In this document: positions 12,603-41,852 of the stretch, piece by piece
Layout of the letters: each line of letters starts with the position of its first letter
How positions within the stretch are numbered: the stretch's first letter is position 1
DNA from: Coprinopsis marcescibilis
Lineage: Eukaryota; Basidiomycota; Agaricomycetes; Agaricales; Psathyrellaceae
Assembly (NCBI GenBank): GCA_004369085.1
Contig: ML210151.1
Location: 1-64,000 of the forward strand
DNA: 64,000 nucleotides
Direction of reading: 5' to 3'
Made by a program: the position numbers and the translations under genes
Notes under the pieces: model-generated
The model's database searches: none
What the model saw: only the letters and a program-made list of their open reading frames with translations
Told to the model about the DNA's origin: nothing

Positions 12603-13633
12603 CTACGACAAGCAAAACAGCTTCCTCAATATCTGTCGCACCTGTCAAAATTTGTGCTCAGGAGAACTCCTCTTCTCGCACGTACCTTCTCTCGCAACGG
12701 CATATTTATACTCGGATGTGATGTTTCCAACTTTGCAGTCGCGAACATAGCCTGGAGCAAAGTAAGCCCTTATGCCCAGTTAAATGAGCAAAGTTGACGT
12801 ACTCTTCGCCTTTCCCGGTCCTTTCAGCCATCGTTACTTGAAGTGGTCAGAGTGGATGAAGTCGTATGAGCTCACCTCCTCCCGATGCTGCAGCTCTTTA
12901 AGCTGGGCTTGCAGTATGTCCCTCTCATCTCTCAGCTGCTGTATCTCGACGGCGGATGAATCAAGCCTTTTCTGAACATCTTCGGTGTAAGCTGCTGAAG
13001 GATGCAAAGTGAGTGGTAAGTACCAGTAATATAACTGGCTCAGTCCGCACCAAATGAGACATTATATACATCCTTTGCCGCAGTGATAGTTGACCCGTGG
13101 AAATTAGCCGCTTGAGCGTTCTGGAACATAGATCCTGCCTACGGACGCGTCAACGTGGATGAAAAGACATTCACAAAGGACGTTGAACTTACTTCGTGGC
13201 CCAATGCTTCAAGCTGGCTCCGCAACTGATCTCGTTCTTCCTTCATGCTCTGCACCTCCGTACTCAGGTCACTATGGCTCAGCTGCTGCCATTTCAGCAT
13301 CTCCTCTCGCATCTTTGACGCCATTCGGAGCTCGCGTTGCAATTGATCACGCTCATGCCTCAAGCTATAGACCTCTGCCATGCATGATGATAGCTTATCG
13401 ATATACTCTTGATATGTAATGGATATGGGTGTAGGCTCATTGTCAAAGTCAGATAGTAACTGATCAAAAAATGCTCAACGCGTGCAGGCCGAAGAATGAG
13501 ATACAATGTCCGTAATAGAACTCACATCGTTGGGGCCATCGATAGGGGCACGCGGGGGTAGTACTTGATGTGGCCCGTTTGATGTATTTAAGCCTTGGAA
13601 GCCAAACATTGACTCGGATGTCGTGCCTGACAT
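12603..13633 (-). CDS. Family member A: coiled-coil protein with conserved RKLFCL tail
   Basis: Six exons: 13526-13633, 13193-13459, 13051-13138, 12876-12994, 12686-12751 and 12603-12632; 225 residues, all phases closing. After a polar N-terminus there is a coiled coil (MAEVYSLRHERDQLQREL ... MKEERDQLRSQLEAL), then the linker ITAAKDVYNVSF, a second coiled coil (VEIQQLRDERDILQAQLKEL), and the last exon of 30 nt encoding ILRKLFCLS. The linker and the last exon recur in genes B-E of this window, which identifies A as a P-loop-less member of the same family. Function unknown; coiled coils suggest oligomerisation. It is head-to-head with B, 467 bp apart. Confidence 0.72.
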
Positions 13634-14100
13634 GGTTGTCGAAGTTCAAGCAGTAGAAGAGGGGAAGAGACTTCAGCACCGTAGCACACCTTTTATATGT
13701 ATGCTATTGTCAGGTCTGACAGCATGCACCGGTTTTCGGGATGAATGCGGCTTTAAGGGTAACAGCTTTTCAATAGGCGCTAATATTACTTCTCAGTGCG
13801 AAGCACATGACAGTCACTGTAGCGGCGAAGTCTTTAGTATCTCTCTTTGAAGCGGCAAGTAACTTGAAATGAATATCGCGTCCATCCCATCTCAAGCTGA
13901 ATGTGCAAGTTAAATCTTGACTCGTGACGATAGCGACAACGTGTTGGCTGTATGGAGGCGTGGTTTAAGCAAGGATTTCGCAAGGCCGTCGTTACCGGTG
14001 TTGATACGGGAATAAGTCCGAATAGCGTACAGTGTGACAAGTTACTTACAACTCCTTGCTTCTGGCACTCAAGCACTGCGGGTACTTGCACCATTCCCTC
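13634..14100. promoter_or_regulatory. Divergent promoter between family genes A and B
   Basis: A 467-bp interval separates the start codons of A (-) and B (+). No unambiguous TATA box. Shared control of a P-loop member and a coiled-coil-only member is inferred from the arrangement alone. Confidence 0.4.
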
Positions 14101-16315
14101 ATGAACTCAAAGACCCCCGCCTTAATTGCGTAAGTGGGTCTCGTTTGCTCATTGTCCATCCGACGTCGTTCTGACGCACATTTACAGCATTATAGGCCCC
14201 ACTGGCTCTGGCAAATCCTCAGTACGTCCCTTCAGCCCATTCACCACGACTAGCCCAATGACACTGTCCCAAGTTCATCAACGCTGTCACAGAGGCAGAA
14301 ACTGCACCAGTTGGTCACGAACTCAGCCCGGTGTCTGCGACGGACTCTATCACCCAACATGATCACACTCTCGCTGGAAGAGCCCGTGTTCGCCTCATTG
14401 ACACCCCTGGGTTCAACAACAACGGTGGTGAAAGAATGTAGATGTCCTCCGAATGACCGCCGAATTCCTGGCAACCGTGTAGGTCATTCCTCCCTCTCGC
14501 CTAGCTTTCAAGTTTCCAACTTCATTCTTCGCAGGTATGACGGCAATCGGGTGCTTACTGGAATCATCTATCTTCGGCAAATAAACGATCAAAACCGCAG
14601 TGGAATGAGGCGCACAGCCATGAGACTTACTAGGGAACTCTATGGATTTGACACCATGGAGAACATGATTATCGTCACAATATTCTGGGATCAACTCTCC
14701 ACCTTAAAGGATGGAACCGCTGCCGAGGAGCTGCTCAGGAGCGGCGAAGGTTTATTGAAGATATTTCAGGACGGCGGCGGCAAGACTCTGCGCTCGGGGA
14801 AGTTTGAGCCAGGAGAAATGCCAGAAGACCATTCTTTTCAGACCCCACCTCAAATTGTTAACCGCATCCTCTCGCGCAGCCCCCCGCGTTACGGCAGATT
14901 CAACACGAGACGTTCGCGGCGGGGGAAGGCTATATTGAGAAAACCACTTTACAGCCAGCTTATCGTCAACAGTTTGATGAGTTGAAACAAGAATTCTTGA
15001 AGCGTGTCGACGATATGCATTCCGAGATATCTATGCTGGAGAACGCCAACAAGAAGGAGCGGCTTCAACGCAGGGAGCTCGAGAGAAAGGCAGGGAGGCT
15101 GAAGCACCAGATAGAAGAGGAAATAAGGACTCGCGAGGAGGTGGAGCGGGATGTGAGTGAGTTCATTGGATTGGCGACAGATTGTACCACCAAGTACGTC
15201 AAGTTTCATAGCGGCTAATTGGAGATAGTCCTGACACTGGCTTCCCTGTTAGGAGTTCCACGAGCCATTGGCAAGTGAGGCCCGTACCCGCCAGCGCTGC
15301 CCTGGAGGGAGACACGAGCAACTATAGGATTGCTGTTGAAGAGCGACTTCAACCTGGTGAAACAGGTACAAGCAATGGTACGCTCATACGCCCGTGATAT
15401 CAGCCCCCGAACCCTCTCAGGTCCCTTCAACAGTCATTCCAGTAAACGCCGAGTTGGAAGAGCTGCGTTTGCGTTACATGCAGCTAGAATCAGAGAATCT
15501 CAAGCTAAGGAGTACAAATGAGGAGAGTCAAGCAGACAGACAGCAGCTGGAAGCATTAGAATTAACAAGGCTCAAGCTGTCGCCAGGTGGAGAGGAGGAC
15601 GGCGTGACCCTTCAGGTGGATCATGTTAAAGTGGTTGGGGTCAATTCCTCAACGACAAACCTTGCTGCCAAGTACGTACTGCACAATGGGGTTTTTACTG
15701 TAATCCTGATACCTGGCTTGCTGTCAGCAGCAGTTCAGGCGATGACCGGGCGGGATCTATACTCGCCAACACTAGGGACGCAAACCTAAGTTACTGCAGC
15801 GTTAGCGCCGCTAAGGAGATTTACCATGTTACAATGAGTACACCCCTTTATATACATCCCCAAGATGCCAGCACGCTAATATCCATATCTGACCACGGCG
15901 CTCAACCTTTCAGACGGAGATGGCCATCTTATGCAAGGAAGGATTGATGATCTCCTTGCCGAAATGAAAAATTTGAAGGACGAACGAAATCGATTGCAGG
16001 AGGAGAATGTGGCTTTACAAGAAAGAGCGGAGGTGAGCATTTGCTGCCATTAAGCTGTTCGGAGATTGACGGTACAACTGTAAGGACCGAGCCAGGCGCA
16101 AGGTGGATAGTTTTAGCAGGCCCCTTGCCCAAAATTCATCCTCCCTTATCATGCATCTCTTAGGTTATATTCTCGGGCTCGTCTCAGGTGGACGAGCTTC
16201 AATACCAGCAGTCTCAAGTGATGTCCAGGAGAGAGAAGGTACTGCATTTCTTTCACATATACATCCTGACATCCCTCGCGTATAGGTTTCGCGAAAGCTC
16301 CTTTGCTTGGACTGA
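14101..16315 (+). pseudogene. Family member B: AIG1/GIMAP-like GTPase with coiled coils, two apparent -1 frameshifts
   Basis: Exons start at 14101-14129, 14188-14221, 14274-14478, 14535-15152, followed by several coiled-coil exons and a last exon 16286-16315. The G domain shows G1 GPTGSGKSS, FINAVTEAETAPVG, G3 LIDTPGFNNN, ILRMTAEFLATVYDGNRVLTG-type core, GIIYLRQIND and G4-like MIIVTIFWDQL. Then come coiled coils (LEELRLRYMQLESENLKL), the linker ANTRDANLSYCSVSAAKEIY plus HVTM, a second coil (LLAEMKNLKDERNRLQEEN), the motif DRARRK, and the tail SRREKVSRKLLCLD. Two places need one extra base to stay in frame: near 14431-14437 (A-rich) and the C6 run near 14884. Either the gene is decaying or these are assembly indels. 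Exon 5 (about 15247-15390) is uncertain. Confidence 0.65.
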
Positions 16316-16967
16316 AAAGTCAAGACCGCGTTCAATGTATTTTCCTCGACCGGCGCCTATAGTAGTTGTTGGAAAACACACCGCTCCATTGGATGTCCCT
16401 TTTATAAATTCGAGACCGTACCGAGCTCCGCTCCAATGTCACAAACCCTGGAATTGGCTACTAAAGGCGACTGCTAAGTCTTTCAGAGTGGTGGAGCTTG
16501 AAGCTTCAGGCCTTCGGGTCTTGAAAGTTGAGATCCACTGTGACGAGGGCAACACTTGCAAGTAAAAGTAGTAGACTCGTGGCCGTCGACAGAAAAGCGG
16601 TCACAGGTATGATAAAAAGTCTCCCAGAATGTACCAACGCGATGGAGTGTTTACAATGATCATGGCTGCCCAGAAGATTGCAATTGAAGAAACCAAAAGG
16701 CAAAAACGGAGATTCCACAGACGATAGATAAGATAATATTTAATTGATCTAGCTAGCAGATAAGATAAGATCAAGGCTTTCGGGCCAAAATTGAGGCATG
16801 ACCATGACTCTACAACAAGTCAGGCGGTAAAATTGGGCAGAACCCTCACCAAACTGATTCGCTAGATACCGATAGCCAAGATTGCAAGTCTTTGCTTCCG
16901 AGCCAAAAGGCTTTCTCTTTTCCCTTCATCTTTCTCTGTTTCTTCAAAACCAAGGTTCATTGGTGCG
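16316..16967. other. Intergenic; GATA-motif cluster upstream of leucyl-tRNA synthetase
   Basis: About 650 bp. Around 16,722-16,770 there are several GATA cores in both direct copies (gatagataagata, agataagataagat) within an AT-rich stretch, possible sites for a GATA factor. No gene seen; short open frames lack features. Confidence 0.4.
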
Positions 16968-19900
16968 ATGGCTCAGACGATTGAATTGGCCCAGGTTCGT
17001 CTTATTCGTATCTATTCCCCCTTAATTGCTCATAGATCAGCGTAATAGACGGCCAAGCGAGATTATCTGAAGGCTTTAGAAGTAAAATATCAAGATCGAT
17101 GGCAGCAGGGCCGTGTGTTCGAGGTCAGCGCGCCGCCAGCAGAAGAGCTGGCAGGCCTTTCGCCCGCTGAGATCAAGGAAAAGTACCCAAAGTGGTTCGG
17201 AAACTTTCCATATCCCTACATGAACGGCAGTCTGCATTTGGGACATGCATTCACCATCTCGAAAATCGAATTCGCCGCTGGATATGAACGTATGTTGGGC
17301 AAACGTGTGCTGTTCCCCCATGGCTTCCATGTCACTGGTATGCCTATCAAGGTGCGTGCGCTGGCTCCAGAGTCGACGATTCTGTACCAATATTCATCAT
17401 GTACAGGCCTCATCCGACAAAATCATCCGCGAAATTGATCTCTTCGGCCCCGACTTTGAGAACTACGAAGAGGTACAAGCCAAGCTCGACGCCGAAACCC
17501 AAAAGGAATCCGAAACGGAAGAGGCAGCAGCAGGCCCTGTCGACAAGGCAAAAGCAAAAAAGGGCAAGCTCGTCGCCAAATCTACCGGACTGACATACCA
17601 ATTCCAAATCATGGAGAGTATCGGCGTTCCTCGCTCTGAAATCAAGAAATTTGCCGACCCCATGTACTGGCTCACCTATTTCCCGCCTATCGCTGTCAAC
17701 GACAACAACGCGTTCGGTTCCCGAATCGACTGGCGTCGCTCGTTCATCACCACCAAGGCCAACCCTTACTATGACTCATTTGTACGCTGGCAGGTCAACA
17801 AGTTGTACAAGCTCGGCAAGATCAAGTTCGGCGAACGTTACACCATCTACAGTCCCAAGGATGGTCAACCCTGTATGGACCACGATCGTCAGGACGGTGA
17901 AGGTGTAGGACCCCAGGAGTACACTGGCATCAAGCTTGAGGTTGCAGAATGGGCTCCCGCGGCGAAAGAGGTGCTCGCCGACAAGGCTGGTGGACGAACA
18001 GTCTACTTTGTCGCTGCCACCTTGCGTCCCGAGACAATGTACGGCCAGACCAACTGTTTCGTCGGAACTGCCTTGAAGTACGGATTGTTCGCGATCAACG
18101 ATAAGGAGGCCTACATTTGCACCTACCGAGCTGCACGCAACATGGCCTACCAGGGTATCATCACCCCTCGCGGCCACATCGAGCAGCTCGCGGAAATCGA
18201 GGGTGCCAAGCTAGTCGGTACCCGAATCAAGGCTGCCTTTGCGATCAACCCAGAGGTGTACATCTTGCCTATGGACAATGTTTTGGCGACCAAGGTGAGA
18301 GACGGAGTGTCGGATTCTGGTTGCTTTGTGTTCTGACATCCTTATTAGGGTACCGGTGTTGTCACCTCAGTTCCCTCGGACTCACCAGACGACTACCAAA
18401 CGCTCATGGACCTTCGCAAGAAGCCAGAATTCTACAAGATCGATCCTTCTTGGGCAGCCATCGACCCCGTCCCTGTCATCTCAACCCCGACATACGGTGA
18501 CCTCACCGCTCCTGCCATCGTCAAGCAGCTCAAGATTCAGTCTCAAAAAGATACCAAGCAGCTCGCTGAGGCCAAGGAGATTGCATACAAGGAAGGTTTC
18601 TATAACGGTACCATGCTTGTTGGCGAGTTCAAGGGGGAGAGTGTGCAAGAAGCCAAGATAAAGGTTCGCGAGAGTATGATCAACAGTGGATTGGCCTTTG
18701 CGTATGCTGAGCCGGAGGGTTTCGTCCTTTCGCGAAGTGCAGATGAGTGTGTTGTTGCGCTCATGGACCAATGGTACTTGGACTATGGAGAGGCTGAGTG
18801 GAAGAAGCAGGCTGAGACGTAAGTGCCGTTGTTTTTTGTTCTGCGTTGGAACGTATCGCTGATTAGTTTTGTTGGACAGTCTCCTCCAGAGGATGCAGAC
18901 CTACACACCGGAAACTCGCCATGCATTCCAGAAGACTTTGGACTGGTTGAACAAGTGGGCTTGCGCGAGAACGTACGGCCTGGGCTCGCACCTCCCTTGG
19001 GATCCTCAGTTCTTGGTCGAGTCTTTGAGTGACTCGACTATCTACATGAGTTACTACACTGTCGCTCACCTCTTGCATGGTACGCTGTCATCATGTATCA
19101 TTTTTTTGCACATCGCCTTAGCTATCTAATTGCAGCCAACATCGAGGGTAGCCAACCTGGTCCACTCAACATCTCCCCTGAAGCAATGACTGACGAAATC
19201 TGGGAATACATCTTTAGCAAAGGGCCTTGGCCAACTAACGCCTCCCTTCCCAAAGAAAAGGCGGACGCTCTCAAGCACGAATTCGACTACTTCTACCCCT
19301 TCGACATCCGTTCCTCTGCCAAGGATCTCATCCCCAATCATCTCACATTCGCCATCTACAACCACGCTGCAATCTTCCCTGAAGATAAATGGCCCCTGAG
19401 CATGCGTTCCAATGGTCATTTGATGTTGAACGGAAAGAAGATGAGCAAGAGTACGGGTAACTCGTTGACTCTGCGGGAAGCGATTGAGAAGTTTGGTGCG
19501 GATGCGACCAGGCTGAGCTTGGCAGATGCGGGTGATGGCATGGAGGATGCTAACTTTGAGGAGAAGACTGCGAATGCGAACATCCTGAGGGTGCATACGT
19601 TGCTTGGCTGGTGCGATGTGAGATCCCTTTACTACTACTGTTGTTTCCCTTGGGATGATTCGCTAATTGTGCTCCGTGCTATAGGAAATGGTCAAGGATC
19701 AAGCCAACTTGAGGACCGGTGAAAAGAACTACCACGATACTGTCTTTGAACAGGAAGTCAACGACCTGATCAACATCACCCAAAGCCACTATGAGGCCAC
19801 CAACTACAAGGACGCGCTCAAATACGGGTTCTACGAGCTGCAGAGTGCGCGTGATTGGTACCGTGAGGTTACCTCTGACGTCGGTATGCACGGCGACCTT

Positions 19901-20660
19901 GTGCTGTACTGGATCCGTACCGCTGCGCTCGTTATCACACCGCTGGCACCGCACTTTGCCGAGCATATCTGGAGCGACATCCTCAAGCAGCCGCAGAGCA
20001 TCCAGCATGCGTTGTGGCCCAAACCCACCACGGCCGTGGACACCACTATCATCGAAGCCGGGCAGTACATGCGGGGCACCATCAAGACCATCCGGGACGC
20101 GGAGACCACTCTGCTCAAGATGATGGCCAAAGCCAGCAAAGGCAAGAAGAACCTGGGCGAAGCGCCGTTTGACCCCAAGAAGCCCAAGAGCGTGCGGGTG
20201 TACGTCGCGACCGAGTTCCCTGAATGGCAGAACATCAGCGTGCAGGTTGTGAAGGATGCGTATGATGCGGAGAAGAATGTGGTGGATGATGCAAAGGTTA
20301 GGCAGCTCTTGACGGAGAATGGCTTGATCAAGGATAAGAAGGTTATGCCATTTATCCAAGCGTTCAAGGTAAGCTTTTAACATTCTTCGATTTGGATGTT
20401 AGCTAATGGATGGCTCGTTTGTTTAGAAACGGATGTCGCAGTATGGAGCTCAGACTGCGTTCAGGAGGACTCTGCCGTTCTCGGAAGTTGCGGTTTTGAG
20501 GGAGTTGTTGCCTTATCTCAAGAAGACGCTGAACCTTGTGGATGCGGAGGTTTTGTCGGTCGAGGAGGCAAGGCAGAGGGAAGGCCAGGTTGGGTTCACC
20601 AAGAGCATTATCGATAGCTCAGAACCTGGAGCACCTGGGTTCGAGTATCGTAATGTGTAG
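16968..20660 (+). CDS. CDC60: Leucyl-tRNA synthetase, cytoplasmic
   Basis: Class I synthetase charging tRNA-Leu in the cytosol. Eight exons (16968-16994, 17049-17351, 17407-18294, 18349-18818, 18880-19079, 19136-19617, 19685-20368, 20427-20660) give 1,095 residues, the usual length for the eukaryotic/archaeal-type enzyme. HIGH motif appears as HLGHAF (in [16 protein letters not shown]), KMSKS as [11 protein letters not shown]. The CP1 editing domain includes [16 protein letters not shown] and the segment [19 protein letters not shown]. The C-terminal anticodon-binding helical region follows ([17 protein letters not shown]), with a Lys-rich eukaryotic extension. Exon 1 is only nine codons (MAQTIELAQ). 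No mitochondrial targeting presequence is seen. Symbol follows yeast. Confidence 0.96.
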
Positions 20661-21110
20661 ATTGCCCCGCTCACTTTGGTACTACGGAGGTCTGGATTTG
20701 GCTCTAGAGTATGCTATAGGCAAGACCGTAAAACTAGGCTTGTTAGAGCTTTCCATTTTTCTACTGGTCTGTTTCGCTGCTGTTCATTTACATGCTATCG
20801 TCGCTACTAGTACATACCGCTACATGGAAAATTGGAATTCAAATTGTTTCAAAGCAACTGGGAGTCGGGACAGGCTCGACGCGTCGCGCCAAGCCGAGAC
20901 ACCCAACAACGCGTCCAAATATTTCCACGGTCGCGTCAACTGGACCACGCGGGGATCGCGTTACCGGGACCGTGCGCGCTGCGGCCAACACACGGTCAGC
21001 ATCATCATCCGATTCGTCGTTCATCTACATCATTAGGCCAGCCTACATCGAGGACGTCACATATCAAGGCCCGAAACGCAACGAGCTATACCTGACGCCC
21101 GTCAGACGCG
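20661..21110. other. Intergenic, 3' flank of LeuRS and promoter of next gene
   Basis: A 450-bp space in which no gene is supported. The open frame 20836-21190 overlaps the next start and lacks domain features; it probably reflects GC-rich non-coding sequence. Confidence 0.4.
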
Positions 21111-23296: not shown

Positions 23297-23774
23297 TAAT
23301 CGTAGTAGTCGTGGAGAATGATCTTTTGGTAGTTTATGTTTATTTAGATTCTGGTAATACCTCTGGCTATCTGTCGCATACATGCTTTGCCTTTTGCTTT
23401 CGAATGCATTTCATTGAATGGGTTTCGCTCTTGAAGTCTTAGCGCTTAGCTTCGGCCTGGCAGCAGGCCTTTCCTTGTGCACATTGGGGCTCGCAGTTCT
23501 GGGAAGGGTGAAGGACCATCCTCAGCTGCATGTTTTAATCGGGGGTCCTGCCACGTGAGGCGTGTAGCTACAGCTATAAATAGCACGCTGTAAGCTATCT
23601 AAGTTTTGAGGGTATTGGCGAGCATCCGCATCTTATATGACTGAGGAGGAACCTGGGACAGTTTCAAAGTATGAAGGTGGTATCCGATGGAGCGAGGTGA
23701 ATGCCAATAGGCGCCGGTCATAGTTGAAAGTCTTGTGTCGACGCCCGAATTACATCGATCGCGTTGTCCGCATC
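23297..23774. other. Convergent 3' region
   Basis: About 480 bp between the stop of the unknown protein (+) and that of gene C (-). Part of it (about 23,600-23,740) resembles the 3' flanks of genes B and D, for example CGGCGCCTAT and, shared with D, ATCGGATACCACCTTCA, so the duplication that made the family carried the 3' flank along. Confidence 0.5.
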
Positions 23775-25009
23775 TCAGCCCAAGCAGAGGAGCTTTCGCA
23801 TGATCTATACTTATGAAGAATGTCAAGGAGAAGTGGAGGCAGGATTAGTGAATAAGAGGGACCTTTTCTCTCCTCAACATGACTTGGGGCTGTTGCTCTT
23901 GAAGCTTGTTCCCCTGAGTTGACTCTGAAAATATAGCCTGGAAACGTGACGTGAGCGAAGAAAAACTCCAATATACCCAGCTGGAGCTCTACCTTGCGTC
24001 TTTCTCGGTCCTTGAATTAACACATCAAGCGGCGAACAGCCCATCGATTTCAGTGCCTGTCATAATCAATAGAGCTCAATATCAGGAAATGCTCACCTCC
24101 GCTCCTTCTTGTAAAGCCTTATTTTCCTCTTGTAATCGATTTCGCTCGTCCTTTAGATTCTTCATTTCGGCAAGGAGCTCATCAATCCTGCCTTGCATCA
24201 TAGGAGTATCTCCGCCTGCAAGGTTGAACGATACGGTCACATTTGGATATTAGTTCGCTGTATATCTTGGAGGCATGCGATGGTATACTCATTGTAACGT
24301 TGAGAATCTCCCTAGCAGCGGTAAAATTGGAGTGGCTTATGTTCGGATTCTGGGTGTTGGCCAGAATGGATATCGCCTGGTCATCGGCTGAGCTCCTATT
24401 GGGAGCAATGTATCAGGATTACTGTTGGATGATCAGTTGTGAGATATACATACTCGGCATTCGTATTTGTGGTCGAGACATTAATCTCCGTCGCAACATG
24501 CTCTACCTGAATGGCCGCACCGTTCCCCCCAGCCGTCAACTGTTTGAGAACTGCTAACTCTGATTCGAGTTGTTCCCTGTCTTCCTCGTGCTGCTCGTTT
24601 GCATTTATCAGCTCGAGATTCTCTGATTCTAACAGTTCGTAACGCAAGCGCAGCTCCTTCAGCTCAAGGTTTACTACTTGGACATCTGTCAAGGACGCCT
24701 GAGAGGTTTGATTGCCGTCTATATGGTTATTAGAGTGTAGATTGGATGTGTATGGGGGCGGAATGGTACCTTTGGCGTTACTATAACCTGTACTTCTGGC
24801 AGAAAAGCAGGTGTCAAGACTTGCTGTTAAATTCGCTGCATGACTTACTTGCCAGCAAGGCGATCTTGCAACTCTGCGTTCATTTCCTTCTCTCGCTGAA
24901 TCGCCTTCATCAAATAATCCCTTTCGTACGTCATATCGTGCAATTTCATTTGAGCTTCTTGTAATTCCGTCACCATCCTCTTCGATAATGGAGAGGCGTC
25001 TGAATCCAT
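23775..25009 (-). CDS. Family member C: coiled-coil protein without P-loop domain
   Basis: Exon 1 (24849-25009) encodes MDSDASPLSKRMVTELQ and a coil; the next exons carry LKELRLRYELLESENLEL, IQVEHVATE, the linker ANTQNPNISHSN and AAREILNVTMS, the coil LLAEMKNLKDERNRLQEEN, the motif DRERRK, EQQPQVMLRREK and a 30-nt last exon (23775-23804) encoding IMRKLLCLG. Each module aligns by eye with genes B and D in the same order. There is no G domain. An alternative start at 25064-25066 would add a hydrophobic leader (MAFGLSFLLPAIPIPAAS); I prefer 25007-25009 for its ACCATGG context. Function unknown; a scaffold or dimer partner is possible. Confidence 0.65.
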
Positions 25010-25655
25010 GGTGGACGCTGCTGGTATCGGGATGGCGGGGAGAAGGAAAGAGAGTCCGAAAGCCATCAGTTAGAAGACAAATTAATTCTTGGGTTACGTT
25101 TCTTTCCATAAGTAGTGGTCAGCGCTCAACGTTCGACGCTTAGTATGGCGATAAAGGCATTTGAATTCTCTGGACGTAAGTTCTGGCCAAGGGGTGGAAA
25201 CCAAGTCATTATACAGTTAAATACAGGCCAAGAGAGCGTCACATCTCTCATAACCTAACATTGGAGGTTTCTGTTCCAGAAGCTTTCTTAATATTAGGTC
25301 AGTGCATTCCTTCCTCATCCTTCGAACCCGGGGTATAGCGAATCCCACTCCACTGTCAGGGCTGGCGTCAGTCGAGGTTTTGGTGAACAAGGTGCCAGGA
25401 GATAACCACGGAACCACAGAGATAAGGTTACAATCCGGGAACGAAATATTGGCAGAGCATCTATCCCAAGCTTGCAACCTTTGAAGATTAGAACCCTACG
25501 TCTCTGACAGGCTCGTGCCCTAACGGGGGGCTTCAAGGTTATCAACTTGAAGGTGGTATCCGATGACGTGAAGCGTCGAATTATAGGCGCCGGTTATATT
25601 TACAGATAAAGTCCTCCCTTCAGACCCGAATTGTGCATCGATCGCGTTGGGCCTC
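25010..25655. other. Intergenic between tandem genes D and C
   Basis: About 650 bp containing the 3' flank of D and the promoter of C, both on the minus strand. The segment 25,540-25,620 is similar to the 3' flank of gene C. An 86-codon open frame (25217-25477, -) has no recognisable features and may be a leftover of an older copy. Confidence 0.4.
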
Positions 25656-27690
25656 TCAGCCCAAGCATAAGAGCTTTCGCAAAAGCTATATACGCGAAGA
25701 ATGTCAGAATAAACGCAGAAAAGGAATGGTAGGTATTATGGAACCTTCTCTCTCCTTGAAATCACTTGAGGCTGCTGTTCTTGAAGCCTGTTATCCCGAT
25801 ACGGGGCTGAGAATACTCCCTAAAGATGTATGATGAGCGGATAAGACTCTCAAGCAGCAAGCTTCTGGGACTCTACCTGGCGCCTGACTCGGTCCTTGAG
25901 TTAGAATTAAGCGGCGAACATCCCAGCGGTGTCAGTGCCCATTTATAACACCCAATGACAGCAAAAGCTCACCTGCGCTTTTTCTTGTAGCATCCTGTTC
26001 TCCTCTTGCAATCGATCTCGTTCGTTTTTAAAAATCTTCATTTCAGCAAAAAGCTCATCAATGCTTCCTTGCAGCAGACGTGTATCCCCATCTGCAGCGT
26101 TGAGCGGTACGGTCAGATATGGATGTTAGCGCAACGACAGTTTGGATGCGGTGTACTCATTGTAACGTGGTAAATTTCCTTCGCGGCGCTAACGTTGCAG
26201 TGGTTTAGGTTTGCCTCCCTAGTGTTAGGGAGCATGGATACCGGTTGATGTTCTGCTGAGCTACTCCTAGCAGTTTCGGGACTAGACATCAGGATTACGG
26301 CTGGATCCATTCTTTAATACTTACTCGGCAGCAGGGTTTGTCGTCGAGCCGTTACTAAACTCAGTCGCAACACTCTCCACCTGAACGGTCACCGAATCCA
26401 GTTGCTGCCTGTCTGCTTGGTCATGCTCGCGCGTACTCATCAACGCGAGATACTCTGACTCCAGCTGCGTGTAGCGCAATCGCAGCTCCTCCAGCTCGGG
26501 GTTTATGTGAACGTCTGAGGGTGCCTGAGGGGTTGTTTCGCCTTTTACGACGCTTCGGTCCTTGGGTCAGAACAATAGGCAACGGCCCATAATTGATGTC
26601 AGCGCCCCTTGTACATCTCAATGGCAGCAACCGCTTACCCCCGCTGTGCTTTGTGATAGAGTCGTGATATTTTGGTGTTCCCGCTCGTCGTCCAGCTTCT
26701 TCATTTTATCAGAGAGCTCGTTCATCATCCCTTGTCCATCCCCGTCTGAAAGGCCCAACCACGCGGTCAGATTTGGATGTTAGTGCACAGGTGCCATAGA
26801 TGTATGATGCTGGTGTACTCAATGTAATTTGGTGAGTCTGCTTCCCGGCGCTAACATCATCAAACGTTAATAAGCTTGTGTTTGCATCCCTAGTGTTGGC
26901 AAGTACGGATACCGGCTGGTCCTCTGCTGAGCTACTTCCATCCTGGTTACTGTTAGACCTACTGTAAAGCACCTTACAACACTTACTTGGCAGAAGTATC
27001 CAAGTTCGTCGCTGATGCTGATAGATTGAGCTCAGACGCAAGACACGTGCACTTCACATGTGTGGTCATGCCCTCCCCAGCCACCACCTGCTTAAGACCT
27101 GATATAGGTAACCCAGGAGGGTCGACTTTGTCACGGTGCTTTGGGTGCTGCTCGTTCTCAGACCGAAGACGGATGATCTCGGTCTCAAACATGTGCGCCT
27201 CGTCTGTGAGGGATCGGATCCGCTCTTCGCGCGCTCGTAGATCCCCCCGGTACATTTCGGAAAGGGTACATTGTTCCTGGTACCGCTTCTGCAGCGACAC
27301 GTAGGTGGCACGAGCTTGTTGGAGCTGCTTGTTATTCTTGACCAGTACCTTCTCGAGAGCCCTGACCTGGTTCAAGCTCTAGCTCCACAACAGGGGGAGG
27401 GCATTAGTAATGGGCGAAAAGAATTAAATAAAAAATAAACATGGAATACCCACTTCTTTCTCTCTCAACTCCTTCTCCTCCTGCAGCTTGATATACTTCG
27501 ACCCTAACTGGATGTAACGCAAGCGCAGCTCATCCAACTCGGTGTTTACATGAATGGTATCTGTTGATTCAGAGGGCACGCTAGAGGTTTCGACCCTCGG
27601 ATATTTCCAACGCCCAAGACGACCGGGATACTTTTTCGTAGGGCCTGGAATCGATATCTGCATGGATCCCAGGGAGCGCGTGGCGGCCAT
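25656..27690 (-). CDS. Family member D: coiled-coil protein with internally duplicated module
   Basis: Begins MAATRSLGSMQISIPGPTKK (start 27688-27690), then TELDELRLRYIQLGSKYIKL, a long coil (NQVRALEKVLVKNN ...), linker 1 (VSVLANTRDANTSLL ... SAGKQTHQITLS) and a short coil. A second round follows: NPELEELRLRYTQLESEYL, VTVQVESVATEF, linker 2 (NTREANLNHCNVSAAKEIY plus HVTMS), coil ELFAEMKIFKNERDRLQEEN, DRVRRQ, EQQPQVISRREK and the 30-nt last exon 25656-25685 encoding LLRKLLCLG. Thus the ELRLRY-to-linker module occurs twice in one gene, separated by short introns whose borders I read at about ten places. No P-loop. I estimate 500-550 residues. Exon borders are supported by repetition of the same introns in B and C. 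Confidence 0.62.
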
Positions 27691-28640
27691 ATATTTTGCC
27701 TTTGCAGGAATGCGGGGTAGCGCCAGAGGATGAGTAGTACGGTTGACACTTTATAGTACATAGCCTCGCTAGACTTGCAGCCAGGTTGCATCATCTTATC
27801 TTGTTTGGTTTGCACAGGACAGGTAAACTCTGATGAGATCACGAAAACATACGCGCAAGTGACTGAAGACGAAGATGGCCCATAAAAGGTTGTTAAAGGT
27901 GCACTAGACAGCTCAGCGCTCAGTGTCACTCGAACTGTTTGTTTCCTGTGTGCCCTACCCTGTTACTACCTAAAGAAATACGTGCACATGCCCTGCCTCC
28001 TTCCATAAGTAGTGGGCGCTCAGCGCTTAGCACGTAGAACTCTGAACGTCCAAGACTCCGAGCCCAAGTCAACCCTGTCACATCGACTCAAAGAGTCAAC
28101 GTTGGTGGAGGGATGAAGTAGCAAACGACTTATCTATACACTCGCCATGATGATGATCAGGATAATAATAGGATCCGAACCCACGGAGGTATACTTTTAT
28201 AATCCAAACATACGCTGCAACTCGGTATGTATCTGTATGTATCGAGATCCGCGTACGGATGAACAGGCGCGTACAACAAGCAACGCCAGAATGCTCAGTG
28301 CTCATCTAACAACGTTCAACATTCGATAGAAGGGTATACAACGATCCTAGTCCACCCCCTTCCCAACCCGGTGTACTGAAACCCGTCGAAACCCCACTCC
28401 ACCACTGATACAAGAGTACCACCTCCTCGTACCGATTCGCAAGCCGTACTGCACTGGCGCCCCATCTGAGCACATGCAACGCAGCACACACAACCTCCAA
28501 CTCTCCCCTGCACAAGCGGTGGGACGAACACGAATATGAATACAGCTTACTCGAAATAAACAGAGTATGAGTAGAGTAGGGTAGAATAGATCTGGACTTG
28601 GATCTATTGTCTGAATCTGGATGATGTGGGGAGGGAAGGG
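27691..28640. other. Intergenic, no gene recognised
   Basis: About 950 bp between the stop of SFT2 and the start of gene D, both minus strand. Open frames at 28306-28770 are antisense or out-of-frame readings of the SFT2 3' region; nothing supported. Confidence 0.4.
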
Positions 28641-29815
28641 TCACCGGGGAAGGATGCTGGATGCCCCGCGGAGCGCGAGAGAGCCGCCCAGGCGAAGTGT
28701 TTGGGTTCCGCCAGGGAAGTAGGCGAGGATGTACGCGACGAGGGCGACGACCTGTTGTTTGTTGTGTCAATTTGGGTTAGGTTGTGGGTTAGGTTGGAGT
28801 TGAGGTTGGAGTTACGTTCGGGTTCACGGAGGGTTGGGTTGGGCAGATTGGGTTACGTGCAAAGGATTGAATCAGCTAGTTAGGATTGGCGAGCAAGTGT
28901 TTTACGTACTTGGACGGCGCCGCTAATTAGCGATCCAAAATAAGAGTGGGCCTATGTACCGAGTGGACAAATATCAGTTACAATGGTCTGTGATTTGGAG
29001 GAAACTTTGGCTGCGCTGCACAGTCTCCCAAGCTCCGCGTAAACATGCGCAGCGTCGACGTAGTGTGCCGGTTGGGAGATAACAGAAGCGCAGAGATAGG
29101 ACTGCAAATACGCACCCCTAGAGAGAAATACAGCGTCAACCCCAAGCTACTAACGTAGACGGCGGAGAAAGGTAGGCGTTCTTTGGAGATGAGGTGCTTC
29201 ATGTGGTTTAATGGGCCGATTAGAACTGAGAAGCTGTAAATCGCGTCAGTTAATCTGGTATGGCATAGATACAATGAGCTTTGTAGACGCACCCGAACAT
29301 GACCAGCAAGCTTCCTAGGCTATAGTGGTGTCAGAGACGTGGGGTAGATGACGATGACGCTTATGAGTCCCCACCTAAACGATAGCGCAAACTTTTCTGG
29401 CCTATAACGCATTCAGCAGGGTTGAAGTAAACAGAGATTGGGTACGAAACTGACTTGAACGCAAGCAAAGGTAGTGTCAGGAAAGACACAATAAAGCATA
29501 CCGCTGCTCCAATTAGGCACCCTCCAAATCCCAATAGCCTAGTAATAACAGACATTAGTATCCACTCATTGATAGATTTCTGGATACGACGCACCGCTCC
29601 CAGCTACTCAACGCAAACCAAGCCTCCTCCTCATTCGAACGTTCGCCAGATCGCAGGGGGATGTAGTCGCCTGCTACGCTGCTGTAGAAACGGCTGAATG
29701 GGTTTCCTCCTCCCGACGACGCTGCCTGTGCAGGCTGTGAATCGTTGTTGTTGCCTCTTGCCCACCGAAACTGCGAGAGGTTGTCGCGAAAGTTCTGTTC
29801 TGTTGTTGCTGGCAT
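28641..29815 (-). CDS. SFT2: SFT2-type Golgi vesicle transport membrane protein
   Basis: Tetraspanning Golgi protein linked to endosome-to-Golgi fusion in yeast. Seven exons (29595-29815, 29455-29538, 29375-29401, 29293-29319, 29116-29233, 28910-28951, 28641-28751) close in frame to 209 residues, matching yeast Sft2 (about 215). Transmembrane segments read [50 protein letters not shown] and [15 protein letters not shown]; family landmarks are [28 protein letters not shown] and [13 protein letters not shown]. Two of the exons are only 27 nt long. Cytosolic N-terminus is Gly/Ser/Asn-rich. An AT-rich TATA-like stretch lies about 95 bp upstream. Confidence 0.93.
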
Positions 29816-30760
29816 GAGCAGGTGGTGGTGGTTGCTAGTGGAGGGAGTTTGATGTTGATCGCGCCGCAGCTTGACGTGTGCGCGCTGGGCGAGCGGATAA
29901 ATTTCAAATATATACTTTCTTCCTCTCGTTTCTTATGATTTCAGGAACTTAAATGGCCTTAAAACCTTTGCAAACCCTGACATTTCGAATACCCTCTTCC
30001 TTCTTAATTGTCCTGCTGGATATTGTCTGCTCGAACTTGGAACCGCGTCGTGCTCACAATGGCTGTTTGTGCGGGCTTGAATCGGAGGCCAACGCTCTCC
30101 GTGATCCCGGGCCGGTATTGGCAGCAGTACATAACAGCTAAATTTAGAGTAGCGCTCGGAGTTGCGTTTTTCTGCAACGTCAGTGCAAGAAGGACACGAA
30201 AAACAAGTTGAGAGCTGTTTTCATGGCTAAAGAATGCAACCTAGGGTCGTGAAGGAAGCTTGTCTTCCATTATTTCTGGTTAAAACCCCACTTTACTTTC
30301 TGTGAGTCTGGGAAATGAGCCATCGATGTTCGATGAGGCAGGTCACGGCACTGGGAGACCATATCGCTGTTAGTAGTGTTACACAATCGTGAGCCGAAAT
30401 GGAGTCGCAAAAATGTTTATGTGAATTCGGGGATAATAATTTTACGGTCCGACGATAATACCCAGACGTGCCTGAATTCCCCCAGCTTCTTCGTTCCCCG
30501 CTCCTTGCTGGCAACCTTCAAAGTCAAATTCTGCCCCAAGCCCAAGTCAACGGTATGTATTTCTCGCGTACTTATTTGATTTGACGATGAATAATCCGCT
30601 TTTTAGCTTTAAAACGCGGTTTGACGCGACAAGCTGGGTCCTTAATTTCCACATCCTGATGCCACCAGAACGCAACACAAAGGGGGCCTTCCTCAAAGGT
30701 CTTCATTATGCTCCTGGACCCTACCTCCGGCCAACTCCCACTGATAGGGAATGGGGCTCC
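29816..30760. other. Divergent intergenic region, SFT2 / chromodomain gene
   Basis: About 0.95 kb if the chromodomain gene starts at 30761. In-frame ATGs at 30587 and about 30662 could move its start left by up to 58 codons. A TATATA stretch at about 29,911-29,918 suits SFT2. No other gene seen. Confidence 0.4.
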
Positions 30761-33186
30761 ATGGATACCACATCTGATACCACTCTAAACACCAAAGTCA
30801 CCGACGACGACACCGGCTTTGACTGCTTGTCTGGCACCCTAACAGAGGCGACAGATAACACTGTTGTTGAGGGGCTTCACTCTGACAACGAGGACTCTGA
30901 AATGGATGCCGAGGGGGAAGACGATGATGACAACGCGAGTGATAGAGCCTACGCATCAATCCCGCTTCCATCTGTGCGCACAAGGTTGAAGCGGTCGATC
31001 AGTGCCCACTTCCCGTCAAATACCAAGAACAAATCACCTCATAGACAGTCTGCATCGACGAGAACCTTTCCTAGGAGGGTGGCGAGCTTAAGTGCGAGAG
31101 TGAGTTCAACAACGAACAAGAATAACCGTGTGCCTTCCCGCAGGCAGCAGACAACATTCAGGGTCAACGGCATCGAACTCAAGGCATCTCCGGCATTTGA
31201 TACCCTTTGGAAGTGGGCTGCGGAAAGAAAGGCAATCGATGATAGACGCCGAGCTGGTTTACCTCGTCCGTGAGTTCCGTCCCCGCCTTTCATTTTCGCC
31301 CCTGTTCGGGTTTATTCTCCTTTTAATTTCCTTTAAACTTTGTTCTCGAGGGGCGGCATGATTATAATCAATGAATGAGTTTCGGAAGCTAACATTTCCG
31401 TTTTCTTCTCTTATTCTCCATTCGCATATTGCCGACGTATTATGGATATACATCCACCCCCAAACCGCGAACTAAATACTTTACTCGGACGGACACCGGC
31501 ACCGTAAACGGCGGCTCTATCCCGTTCACCGTTGCCTTTGCACACACCTCCAGCTGGACAACCGATCCCATCCTCCACGAATATGCCTTCTGCAACACTT
31601 ATCGCGTACTCGACCGAGTCTCGCAGTACATAATCACAAACGTAATCGAGCTCGGTCCCCAAGACCCCGTGGAAGTCGTATTCCGCATCACCCTCTTCAA
31701 CACCTTTACCAAGATCAGCACCTGGGAAGCGCTCACAGCCGCCCTCGGAACCCCGCACCTCACCTGGGCATCCTACGACCGCGGCGCCTACCAAACCGTC
31801 CTCGACACCCTCAAAGCCCGCGGCGAGCCCATCTACACCGCCGCCTTCATAAAGCCCGCCCCCCACTTTGGCTACACAACCAACCACATGAACCACCTCG
31901 TCCTGCTCGAAAACCTCATGCAGAACGACATGCCCGCCAAACTGCGCCACGCGCAGAGCTTGGCGGATGTGTATGAGTACTTGGTGAGCTTCCCGGGGAT
32001 GGCGGTGTTTACGACTTACCAGTTGATGCTCAATTTGGGGTATGCGCGGCAGGGGCTGGGCAGGTTTGGCGGGCTGGACTTCGTGATTCCTGGGCCGGGG
32101 TGTGTGTCGGGGTTGGCCAAGATGTTTGGGGCAAGTTTTTGGAAGGGGGTTGATCAGCGAGAGGAGGGTAGCGATGCTTCGAGTGGTGGGAATGCTAAAA
32201 ATGGGAGATTGAATAGGGACGATGCCACCGTTGCGTTCGCGACCGAAGTCGTACGCTGGATGGTGCAGACGCAGGATGAGCATTTTGAGAGGCTGGGGTT
32301 GGAGTTTAGCAAGCTGAGCATGGTTGTTGATGTGAGGAGTGGGAGGAGGGAGGAGATACCGATGATGCTGGAGGATATGGAGCATGCGGTGTGTGAGGTG
32401 GACAAGTATTGTCGGAAGAAGCATCCGGGGATCAAGGCGCATGGTGCGAAAGGAAAGGAGAGGACGGAGATTAGGAGTACTTATAAGGGACCTGCTGAGG
32501 AGCTTGTGGCAGAGGCTCCTACTCCTGCTTCATCGTCTGATAGGAGCAGGTCGGCGAGGGGCAACAATTCCGGGACGAAAGATACCAAGTCAAAGATAGG
32601 GGTACAAGCGCCCGCGGCTTACCCTGCTCAGCCTGCGATACCGAAAGCCTGGCGTTTAGCTTCCCGCCGTGTTTTGCGTGTAAGGCCGGGTGCGCTCGTG
32701 GTGGAGAAGCGGTATGAGGTGAACAGGATTGGCGACCATCGGTGGGTGGATGCGTATGATGTTGGAAAGGGGAGGTGGTTGATGGCTGATGGGTCTGATG
32801 ACGAAGAAGATGAGGAGGAAGCTAGTGAACGAGGATCGCCGGGCGAGGATTCGGATGAGGATATGAAAGTCGATGGGGCTGCTAGAAACTTGCGGTCGAG
32901 GAAGCAGATCAGTGCTGTCGCTCCTGTAGGCCAGCCGCAGCAGCAGAGGAAAATCGAAAGGAAAAGACAATTTTTCGTTTATTGGACTGGGTATGCCGAC
33001 GAGGCTGCCACGTGGGAGTGGGAGCAGAGCTTGATACAGGATGCCCCGCTGGTTGTGAAGGAGTATTTAGAGGGTGTTGGGGCAGCTCAGGCGAGGGATG
33101 GCGGAGAGGACAGCGGAGGAGGAGGAGGAGGAGAGAAGACAAAGGCAACAGCTAAGGCCAAGCCTAGTGGGAGGAGAAGGAGGTAG
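30761..33186 (+). CDS. aGPT-Pplase / HMUDK_hel-domain protein with C-terminal chromodomain
   Basis: Predicted nuclear protein related to DNA thymine hypermodification enzymes. Two open frames belong together: exon 1 (30761-31269) ends RRRAGLPR plus CC, exon 2 (31554-33186) starts C-TGG, giving LPRPWTTDPILHEYAFCNTY, the family's typical junction; 713 residues. The HMUDK_hel/aGPT-Pplase region runs about residues 150-400 (FDTLWKWAAERKAI, RVLDRVSQYI, PVEVVFRITLFNTF, NHMNHLVLLENLM). An acidic N-terminus and an acidic linker flank it. At about 642-690 is a chromodomain (FFVYWTGYADEAATWEWEQS, then LVVKEYLEG) with the WTGY and TWEWE signature, then a basic tail. The 284-nt intron is unusually long here and may hide a small exon. 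Family names are from memory; known relatives are phage enzymes acting on 5-hydroxymethyluracil and fungal proteins of unknown activity. Confidence 0.72.
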
Positions 33187-33763
33187 TCGCTTGTGCGCTG
33201 TGTAAGCACGAGTTGCTTACTTGCGTAGCGTTGGATGGCACGAGGATGCCATCTTGCTACCGATGCGGATGATGCAGTCCGTTATCTATCTGCTCGTGTA
33301 CATTTATATGAATGCGTATATTTTAATTGCCTCGTGGCAGCCTAGTACTTAGAAGTATTTACTTAGTCGATGATTTTGTTGTGGATCTTTGTCTTGAGGG
33401 TTTCTTTATCTGTATGTCCTTCGTATGGCCTCGTATCCCTCCTTTTGTACCGTCTGTTATAAATGCATCTCTCCATTCCATTTTTCAATGCGAATATGTT
33501 GGTTCGCAGGCTCAGATCTGATAGTAGCAATAAGCGCCCGTGGCCTAACAGTCCCAAAGTGGTCTCGAGAAGCAGAATGTTAGTGCATACTTACTGACTC
33601 GGATAGCACGCATACTCTGCCCCTATATGCTCTACTGCCATCATTAGCTGTGAGTCCTCGCTTTACAAATATGAGTCATAGAAGAGACTGTCCGACGATA
33701 CTTTAACATTGTCAGTAGTATGTGCTAAGCTCTCCTGGTATATGCATCGTCCAAGCCGAAATA
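33187..33763. other. Convergent 3' region
   Basis: About 580 bp between the stop of the chromodomain gene (+) and that of family gene E (-). AT-rich, no gene recognised. Confidence 0.4.
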
Positions 33764-35888
33764 TCAAAGGCAGAAGAGCTTCCGCAGTACCTGTTGGGGT
33801 AAAGAGTGACGGATAAGCGCGGTTCGGCTAGTACAATGAGACAGTTGGCTCCGGCACCTTTTCTCTCCTGGACATCACGAGCTTCGTCTCGTCGGTCGAA
33901 CTTCCTGCGGCGAATATTCCCTGGGGAGATGAAGATTGTCGTTTGCTGGCTCGGACACTACCAGGAGTGAAAGGGCTCAACGTTCAACGTACCTTACGCC
34001 TCGTTCGGTCCTGAAACCAAATGAATTAGAGGTAATGAAGAAGTGGCATACCCAGACAGGCTATTAGAAGCGGCCTTACCTCTTCCATACTCGTCATTTC
34101 TGCGAGCTTTTCCTGTAGTCTGGCTCTCTCTTCTTTGAGTTGCTGAAGCTCAGACGCCATGGCGTCCAGGCGTTCCTGATCTTGTGGGGTTTTTTCTGCA
34201 ACTTTCATGCAAATCAAATGTTTCGGGGGAGTTTATCAAATATCGAAAAGGGTCAGTCAAATCTGGGGTGTGCACATACAAGCAAGAGCGCACATACCAA
34301 ATGAGACGTGGTAGATGTCGTTTGCGGCGGTGAGGTGTGAATTGTGAATGGTTGCGGTGGCGACTTGTGGGAGCAAGGAGGTGCCTTGGACTGGTGCCGT
34401 GACAGATTCTGTCTCTTTAATTCTGACGCAGGAAGCTCAGTAAAGTATACGCATATCGAAAACCACTGACCTGATAGCGTGTACAGAGGCCATATCCTGC
34501 TTCTCCTGCGAGTTTCGCTGCCCTTGTGGAAGTGATTAAAAATGCCCTAAAGATGCCTCCACATAGCGGCGGAGGATAGATGAGCGCTCACTTACCTTCT
34601 AGAGAATTAGCTCTGGTAGAAAGGGTCGACTTGGGCGAACTCTTGGACCTGTCCACCTCTGATTTCGGGTGTACTTGTGGGGGGAGCGGGGGGAGCAGAG
34701 GGGAGGAACTCCGGCTCGAGGCATTCGTACTCGGTATAGCAGGAAAACCGTGACTCTCCCTGAGCTGCTTGTACAGATCCTCTTTCAGGAGTTGTTGGCC
34801 AGGGGAGTCATCCCGATCCAGAGCGTAGTCCGCGGACGCCCTGACCATGCTACGTCCTCGACTTGAGCTCGCATAACCATAAATGGAGTTGCCACTTCCA
34901 ACACTTCCTCTGCGAGCAGCGTTTGTCCCAGGAATACTAGCACTGTCATATGTATTTATGTCGGGTGTCCTTGCTCCATTCAGGTACTCCAGCTGCTCTT
35001 CGAGTCGCACCCTTGCTAGCTCGTGTTCCCGATTTATCTCTTCCTCTTCCAGAGCTGAGATACGGGCCTTCAAGTCGTCCAACGGAGAGTCAGGGGCTAT
35101 AACTGAGACCGGTTGCTCAAGGGTAGGTAAGGCCCATGATTCAACTAGGTGTGATAGTAGCTCCAAGGGTGTTACAAAGTGTTGACGAGTTGGAAAGGGA
35201 GACTCCTGGGATAGATTAAACATTCCCCAGCGGTAGAACGTCACACCTCCAGCGTAAAGCTCGTTGAGTGCTCCGGATTGTATCTCCTTTTCTCGCTCCA
35301 CGGCCTCATCGAAGCTGAAGCTGGATGATAATTGGTCCCATAGTGTAGTGACCACGATGAAGTTCCGTATTGGAAGACCCGCTTCCTCAAAAACATCTTG
35401 TATATCTTTGAACTCGTGTTTCTGGAGGGCGTCGATGTGCTTCTGATTGATTGGGAGGACATGTACGAGGCCGCCAAACATGACATTCTTTACCCTGTCG
35501 AAGATCAGCCAACAACAGTACGAAGGGCTAAACGAACACTGACCCTGGTCTTTGGCTCATGTGCTTTACAGCATCTCTGAGACCGGATGAGATAGCTCTC
35601 TCCTTGTCGGTTGGCGTGTCGACGGCCTCAATTCCAACTCCACGGAAGTCGCCGCTATATACAACGCCTCCGTCCGACGAGCTGCCTCTCAGTACCAGGT
35701 CAATGAGCTATTGATAGACAGAGTATGAAGTTAGATAGTGACTACTGAAACGCATAGAACTATAAGTACAGCGGCCTTGCCAGATCCTGCAGAGCTTCCC
35801 GTGAACCTACATTTCCCATGAGTACTCGCGATACACCAGACGTGCGGCCCGAGAGAAGTACTCACACAATGAACGGCCTTCTAGACAT
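33764..35888 (-). CDS. Family member E: P-loop/coiled-coil protein with degenerate GTPase motifs
   Basis: Ten exons: 35866-35888, 35770-35806, 35544-35707, 34596-35494, 34471-34522, 34298-34422, 34080-34201, 33993-34010, 33860-33922 and 33764-33790; all phases close, 509 residues. The N-terminus MSRRPFIVFTGSSAGSGKAA has the P-loop outline but Ala replaces the Ser/Thr after the Lys. G3 is VDTPTDK rather than DTPG. The remainder (GGLVHVLPINQKHI, FIVVTTLWDQL) follows the AIG1-like fold of gene B. A Ser-rich middle part, the linker TAANDIYHVSF, a coil (ELQQLKEERARLQEKL), DRTRRK, VMSRREK and the 27-nt last exon (VLRKLFCL) place it in the A-E family. Likely impaired in nucleotide hydrolysis; binding untested. 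Confidence 0.75.

Positions 35889-41785: not shown

Positions 41786-41852
<67 letters not shown>

Follow-up and report, generated by a model that had tools for sequence, protein, structure and literature searches.

The first 64,000 nucleotides of contig ML210151.1 of the mushroom-forming basidiomycete Coprinopsis marcescibilis, referred to here as the window, contain a group of five related genes, named A to E. The genes were rebuilt by hand from the raw sequence of this contig (C6 of the 36.3-Mb genome), and their splicing is inferred from conservation. They encode coiled-coil proteins, some of which also carry a nucleotide-binding region of the AIG1 type (G domain). A short linker between the coils appears to resemble the amino-terminal motif of NACHT receptors (NLRs) encoded by the same genome, and this likeness, which sequence comparison supports, is the new element reported here.

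Four of the five genes give open spliced frames with GT-AG introns. These are gene A (12603-13633, minus strand; 7 exons, 234 residues), gene C (23775-25009, minus strand; 7 exons, 283 residues), gene D (25656-27690, minus strand; 10 exons, 479 residues, two linker units), and gene E (33764-35888, minus strand; 10 exons, 509 residues). A, C, and D have no G domain, in agreement with the original prediction on this DNA, and that of E is degenerate. A first model of D contained stops and suggested a pseudogene, but an alternative acceptor gives the open 479-residue frame, and this reading was therefore dropped. Gene B (14101-16315, plus strand) carries an AIG1-type G domain, coils, motif, and tail. 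It had been presented as one gene; in this assembly it is unreadable in a single frame and consists of three in-frame pieces, with breaks near 14436 and 14878. A public model overlapping gene E (P0001, 312 residues) is 99% identical to it over 58% of E and stops before the motif exon.

The hand-built models share a carboxy-terminal module, which consists of a linker exon, a coil exon, an 18-nucleotide microexon encoding DRxRR[KRQ], and an end of the form RKL[LF]CL. Its alignment in A-E comprises 121 columns with 24 invariant positions, distributed over the linker, the coil, DRxRR[KRQ], REK, and RKL[LF]CL. The coil exon measures 119 nucleotides in A (12876-12994), B (15914-16032), C (24097-24215), and the second unit of D (25973-26091), and 122 in E (34080-34201). 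The microexon is exactly 18 nucleotides long in all five genes and was also recovered by a pattern scan; it encodes DRERRR in A (12803-12820, phase 0), DRARRK in B (16085-16102), DRERRK in C (23993-24010), DRVRRQ in D (25877-25894), and DRTRRK in E (33993-34010). The motif DRxRRK/Q had been confined to B-E, and the DRERRR of A extends it to all five. Two exons form each tail. In A (12603-12751, as 12751-12686 and 12641-12603) it ends in RKLFCLS; in B (16164-16315) it reads SRREK then VSRKLLCLD, in C (23775-23937) LRREK then IMRKLLCLG, in D (25656-25819) SRREK then LLRKLLCLG, and in E (33764-33920) SRREK then VLRKLFCL. The order of parts in the family is thus an optional G domain, a coil, the motif, a second coil, the basic microexon, a stretch mostly ending in RREK, and RKL[LF]CL.

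The linker, or motif, exon reads AGSMFQNAQAANFHGSTITAAKDVYNVSF in A (13051-13138), SILANTRDANLSYCSVSAAKEIYHVTM in B (15731-15837), SILANTQNPNISHSNFTAAREILNVTM in C (24289-24395), and SLLPQVATATIHNSHLTAANDIYHVSF in E (34298-34422). In D, the first unit, D1, is divergent and reads SVLANTRDANTSLLTFDDVSAGKQTHQITL (26819-26934), and the second, D2, reads SMLPNTREANLNHCNVSAAKEIYHVTM (26157-26266). The exon ends in phase 1 in every rebuilt gene (A, B, C, both D units, E, and the genes F and I219 described below). From this exon onward the four introns have phases 1, 0, 0, and 0 in all of A-E; the intron preceding it is of phase 0 in A and of phase 2 in B, C, D, and E. Phase-0 introns flank the microexon and also the exon that follows it in A-E, so either could be left out of the transcript with the reading frame preserved. 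The paralogy of A-E is real, and the rebuilt exons, the invariant positions, and the common phases bear out the module order that the original prediction had proposed. Nor is the similarity limited to generic heptads, as the invariant linker, microexon, and tail positions of the module alignment exceed them. The earlier observation is sound and slightly understated.

The family is also larger than the five members within 23 kb first described, since the microexon pattern identifies at least nine loci in the C. marcescibilis genome. Across the 36.3 Mb, this DNA pattern, including splice sites, occurs 14 times, and a reversed control 3 times. Five of the 14 are A-E and four are further family loci on contigs C219, C342, C383, and C412; the remaining five lie on C8, C21, C31, C135, and C245. 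A whole-genome protein search with the B module found further copies on C342, C383, and C219, and one with the A module recovered, besides A, only E and the C219 copy. In a regular-expression scan of the collected loci, linker, microexon, and tail were all present on C342, C383, and C219. The copy on C342, gene F (15376-17798, plus strand), has a complete open model of 612 residues in which the P-loop is intact and one intron is of the GC-AG type, and its public model, P0002, ends at 393 residues, before the motif exon. The copy on C219 (I219) has an open model of 414 residues without a G domain. Two loci look damaged: that on C412 (L106, 3700-5500) has motif, coil, and microexon and no recognisable tail was seen in it, and that on C383 (H383; L065, 307-3429) contains a long T-rich, insertion-like stretch inside the tail region.

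The G domain is intact in F, broken in B, and degenerate in E, and the other members consist of coils and module. F scores 36.5 bits against the Pfam family AIG1 (PF04548; cut-off 27). The pieces of B, joined with X at the breaks, score 27.9 bits against AIG1 and 36.5 bits against MMR_HSR1, so the AIG1/GIMAP-like domain claimed for B stands; it occupies 14101-14877 (GPTGSGKSS, DTPGF, TIFWD); the first break interrupts it and the second coincides with its end. The Walker A motif GxxxxGK[ST] and the DxxG motif are present in F (GNSGSGKSS, DTPG) and in B (GPTGSGKSS, DTPG). The same domain had been assigned to E (35104-35888; GSSAGSGKAA, DTPT, TTLWD). There the Ser/Thr of the P-loop is lost, and no AIG1 or other GTPase family was matched up to E = 1 among the Pfam families listed; AIG1 was likewise absent from those listed for A (best 25 of 38) and C. 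With GKA in place of GK[ST] and DTPT in place of DTPG, E is best called a pseudo-GTPase. The proposed set of GTPases and coiled-coil partners holds for the module, the paralogy, the G domain of B, and the G-less A, C, and D, and is unsupported as worded in that the E domain is degenerate and B is broken.

The textbook G4 box is [NT]KxD, and it is found in none of the three domains, which have TFWD (F), IFWD (B), and TLWD (E) at this position. The tryptophan, at position 142 of F, is invariant in 27 aligned sequences. An AlphaFold model of P0002, built with 26 relatives, has a mean predicted local distance difference test score (pLDDT) of 83.2, and its nearest structures are GIMAP7, Toc34, Toc33, and GIMAP2, which gives F an AIG1/Toc fold. 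The family thus resembles the AIG1/GIMAP/Toc GTPases in the Pfam score and the modelled fold of F, and differs from them in the [TI][FL]WD form of G4 in F, B, and E and in the NLR-type motif and cysteine tail that follow the G domain.

The module appears to be under constraint. Among B, C, D2, and F (six pairs, 114-115 codons), the ratio of nonsynonymous to synonymous substitution rates (dN/dS) ranges from 0.25 to 0.51; for the other 15 pairs it is unusable, because their synonymous sites are saturated or nearly so. On these values C and D look constrained despite the absence of a G domain. Alternatively, the multigene family may be in decay, with damage in B, E, C383, and C412 and with the members devoid of a GTPase surviving as remnants or decoys. 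Such decay would explain the two frame breaks of B, the degenerate P-loop of E, the T-rich stretch in the C383 tail region, and the missing tail of C412. It is nevertheless very improbable, given these dN/dS values and the frames of A, C, D, E, C342, and C219, which are open through the tail after splicing.

The tails are cationic, with net charges between +3 and +5, and have a cysteine one or two residues from the end. The position of this cysteine does not fit a CaaX motif, and that reading of the tail was rejected. As to a HeLo-type four-helix domain, residues 412-478 of E match PF17111 (PigL_N) weakly, with 12.2 bits where the cut-off is 27.2.

Agaricomycete NLRs often begin with a short amyloid-like motif, according to a survey (PMC9815663). 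In the present genome, NLRs were searched through the NACHT family PF05729 only; 84 matches were listed (86 of 181 candidates scored), and the regions upstream of 28 of these served as NLR stretches. The termini found in them read like MPLFQAAHNFSITGSTFNEYT, MSILPDAQNITLNNCQLTSIAGDFNV, and MSVLEHATNVSINDSAITSVL and lie mostly at the protein start, as that survey describes. The linkers read SMFQNAQAANFHGSTITAAKDVYNV in A, SILSNTRHANISHSNFTAAKDVYNV in C219, and SLLPQVATATIHNSHLTAANDIYHV in E.

When 21 termini were combined into an ungapped profile and scanned over the 64 kb in six frames (61,955 windows), A and C scored best, and all eight linkers tested aligned best in the same register (shuffle P 0.00035 to 0.09). 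A second profile of 19 termini omitted L087 and L100, whose register needs padding; L095 and L105 were used in neither. It was scanned over 185,532 distinct six-frame 20-mers from the window and the other collected loci, excluding the 28 NLR stretches. The first rank was taken by a segment at L055, which a further NACHT match follows on the same strand after about 310 bases. Ranks 2-6 were C219, C383, C, C412 (a locus originally found by its microexon and not by its motif), and A, and F, E, and D1 followed at 12, 17, and 21. After removal of the two SIL-type NLRs, ranks 2-5 were still held by C, A, C219, and C383, with C412 at 9 and D1 at 33. Four termini (L084, L102, L104, and L105) came via the linker profile and were excluded from the 19-terminus and column-shuffle tests.

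Convergence could in principle produce such a result, as both segments are short and rich in Ser, Asn, Thr, and alternating hydrophobic residues, and a profile may reward this composition. The low scores of B and D2 and the 6 to 11 identities out of 27 in the best linker-NLR pairs would agree with it. However, when the profile columns were shuffled, which keeps the composition, the sum of the nine linkers was reached once in 20,000 trials and that of five divergent members in none of 20,000, and shuffled linkers matched the best-pair score at P ≤0.0085 for all nine. The pair comparison used 25 NLR segments, including L084, L102, L104, and L105, which had been noticed via the linker profile, and L055, noticed via the NLR profile; the motif exon of E shares 11 of 27 positions with the terminus at L084. 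NLRs of the SIL/SVL type on C19, C39, C45, and C17 supply some of the best pairs. Moreover, the best score among 26,098 windows of 51 real proteins was 10.1, whereas A, I219, C, and H383 score 17.5-23.3; in this test, whose profile includes the four termini found via the linker profile, E (10.3), F (8.3), D2 (5.1), and B (-2.9) are not outstanding. Convergence is accordingly considered unlikely. Seven other segments of the same proteins gave profile scores of -10.8 to -18.1.

The search was also reversed. In 14 of the 28 stretches (L079, L081-L083, L086, L087, L089, L090, L093, L094, L097-L099, and L101), the top hit of a 20-column linker profile was an NLR terminus from the existing list, and in four more (L084, L102, L104, and L105) it was a motif-like segment; with 27 columns these counts were 11 and 4. 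A crude donor scan of the NLR loci yielded a candidate following the motif in 11 of 25 loci, and in 10 the first such candidate was of phase 1. This parallel with the linker exons was not used as evidence because GGT glycine codons bias the scan. Taken together, the comparisons support a sequence resemblance between the linkers and the NLR-side motifs, which appears weaker for B, D2, E, and F.

The explanation preferred here, with a probability of about 0.5, is that these genes form a constrained C. marcescibilis family of at least nine loci, whose products would be coiled-coil proteins tethered to a membrane and in some cases equipped with an AIG1-type GTPase, and that NLRs would recruit these products through the shared motif. 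NLRs bear a motif of this kind at their own amino terminus, and on activation they would template the motif of the family proteins or dock onto it, possibly by amyloid or other homotypic assembly. The coils would multimerise these proteins, and the tail, with its basic residues and a near-terminal cysteine that is possibly acylated, would hold them at a membrane. The GTPase may set the threshold of this assembly or drive it, and the outcome may be an immune or cell-death response.

Several results weigh against this recruitment by NLRs. The NLR termini were chosen by eye and with a loose hydrophobic-pattern regular expression, not by the linker profile, after the linkers were known, and the linkers are not independent because they are paralogues of each other. 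No start codon was seen directly before the L055 segment. Some members fit poorly: D2 and B rank only 98 and 627 in the 19-terminus scan, fall to 2,102 and 9,786 without the two SIL-type NLRs (E and F then rank 78 and 99), and have column-shuffle P values of 0.02 and 0.11. In the reverse search with 20 columns, the terminus was not first in 10 of the 28 stretches. The G[DN] bigram given in PMC9815663 is replaced in the linkers by [KRNH][DE] (KD, KE, RE, ND, HD), and the motif is not terminal; it lies in mid-protein between coils, with about 80 residues after it. None of the 84 listed NACHT matches (PF05729; 86 of 181 candidates scored) is on contig C6, which carries A-E, and the neighbourhoods of C342, C383, C219, and C412 were checked for NLRs through this list. 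The tails are not measurably amphipathic, as the helical moments of seven tails were not above those of shuffles (P 0.10-0.80). Finally, linker, microexon, and tail were together in none of the 50 public models of G-domain homologues when these were scanned with regular expressions, and residues 398-509 of E, used as a query, yielded 338 candidates, none at E of 10 or less in public proteins.

The 50 homologues were obtained with residues 1-230 of F as query, and three of them, including F itself, are from C. marcescibilis. Linker-type regular expressions matched P0006, P0012, P0035, P0036, and P0046 in stretches unlike the motif, and the microexon expression matched P0049 only. The whole of E retrieved a single protein, its own shortened model (scored over the 7,993 candidates with the most shared words). 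In these public models the module is unseen outside C. marcescibilis, and it may nevertheless exist there, since public models can stop early. The G domain is more widespread than the module, with 44 exon-level matches to that of B in the genome (up to E = 1, B and E included). That of E is 34% identical over a partial length (E 1.3e-13) to a G domain at about 69 kb on contig C6.

An ordinary lineage-specific expansion, in which AIG1-like GTPases and coiled-coil scaffolds serve trafficking or septum or organelle work and the linker is a short homo-oligomerising beta segment unrelated to NLRs, would fit the normal AIG1/Toc-type fold of F. It would also fit the related module-less GTPases of this genome and of other Agaricomycetes and the lack of listed NACHT matches on contig C6. 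This explanation is possible, and is judged clearly less probable than recruitment by NLRs, because several linkers rank with NLR termini, far over background and in register, and the reciprocal search recovers NLR termini in 14 of 28 stretches.

Within the recruitment hypothesis, the family might represent a missing partner class of the amyloid-like signalling of mushroom NLRs. AIG1/GIMAP-type GTPases and GTPase-less coiled-coil scaffolds would have the NLR motif at an internal position and, at their end, a cysteine tail that binds membranes, and an activated NLR would nucleate a membrane-bound GTPase/coiled-coil assembly rather than a HeLo-type pore. This extension is tentative and rather doubtful. 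It shares a proposed logic with the fungal NLR-HeLo/HET-S systems (HRAM, PP, sigma), in which the motif of an NLR serves as template for a copy of that motif on a partner that acts on membranes; the present family differs in that no HeLo-like domain was matched above cut-off and no NLR was found nearby among the listed NACHT matches. With the Agaricomycete meta-family of NLR motifs NLR05/08/22/29/44, described in PMC9815663, the linkers share the fungal class and the spacing of hydrophobic and small polar residues seen in the NLR termini of this genome. The comparison was made with the termini of the same genome. Here the motif is internal between coils in GTPase/coiled-coil proteins, rather than being part of an NLR or following a HeLo/MLKL-like domain.

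Bacterial conflict systems offer a further comparison by description. As presented in PMC8195603, small shared adaptor segments join NTPases to their partners, and septin- and GIMAP-like GTPases are threshold-setting components. The effector-associated-domain systems treated there resemble the present family in combining adaptor segments with a GTPase switch and differ in being bacterial and in having adaptor domains that are mostly helical.

The survey of Agaricomycete NLRs reports many amyloid-like motifs, usually dozens per strain, and effector-side copies seem less frequent (PMC9815663). A motif of this kind in a GTPase/coiled-coil context offers a concrete and testable candidate partner for this effector-side question. 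One way in which such partners may be missed is also apparent, as the public models of both E (P0001) and F (P0002) stop before the motif exon. The AIG1/GIMAP class acts in animal and plant defence, and the recruitment hypothesis, if true, would link this class to prion-like signalling. In titles and the starts of abstracts, no report was found of fungal AIG1-type GTPases with an NLR motif, and no literature combining AIG1 with Agaricomycetes and GTPase was found. The immune or self-recognition role first suggested for the family is unproven; the likeness of the linker to the NLR amino-terminal motif is its one specific new line of support and makes a role in NLR signalling specific and testable rather than a general guess.

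Some additional features of the relatives and of the window were observed. The G domain at 69 kb on contig C6 belongs to a second AIG1-type GTPase (69065-69681, P0009), about 33 kb past gene E, whose public model has a hydrophobic segment at its end and no motif module. The GTPases P0008, P0010, P0016-P0019, and P0023, from other basidiomycetes or metagenomes, have a common end segment, for example GGGLFSKIGRWLDSVF, which is likely amphipathic and could be another membrane-binding tail. Two P-loop G domains per chain occur in four homologues among P0008, P0010, P0013, P0014, and P0015, and P0015 joins kinase domains to G-domain sequence. In the window itself, positions 10358-11130 contain tandem repeats of a 63-base unit; the array is open in several frames, one of which reads RNPQRTNPVEPTFVTIRELEA, and includes a short stretch of unknown bases. 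Between B and C, positions 17049-20380 appear to hold a leucyl-tRNA synthetase gene. At 41786-41853 there are about 23 copies of TGT, which on the minus strand correspond to 22 asparagines in an open reading frame rich in Ser and Ala.

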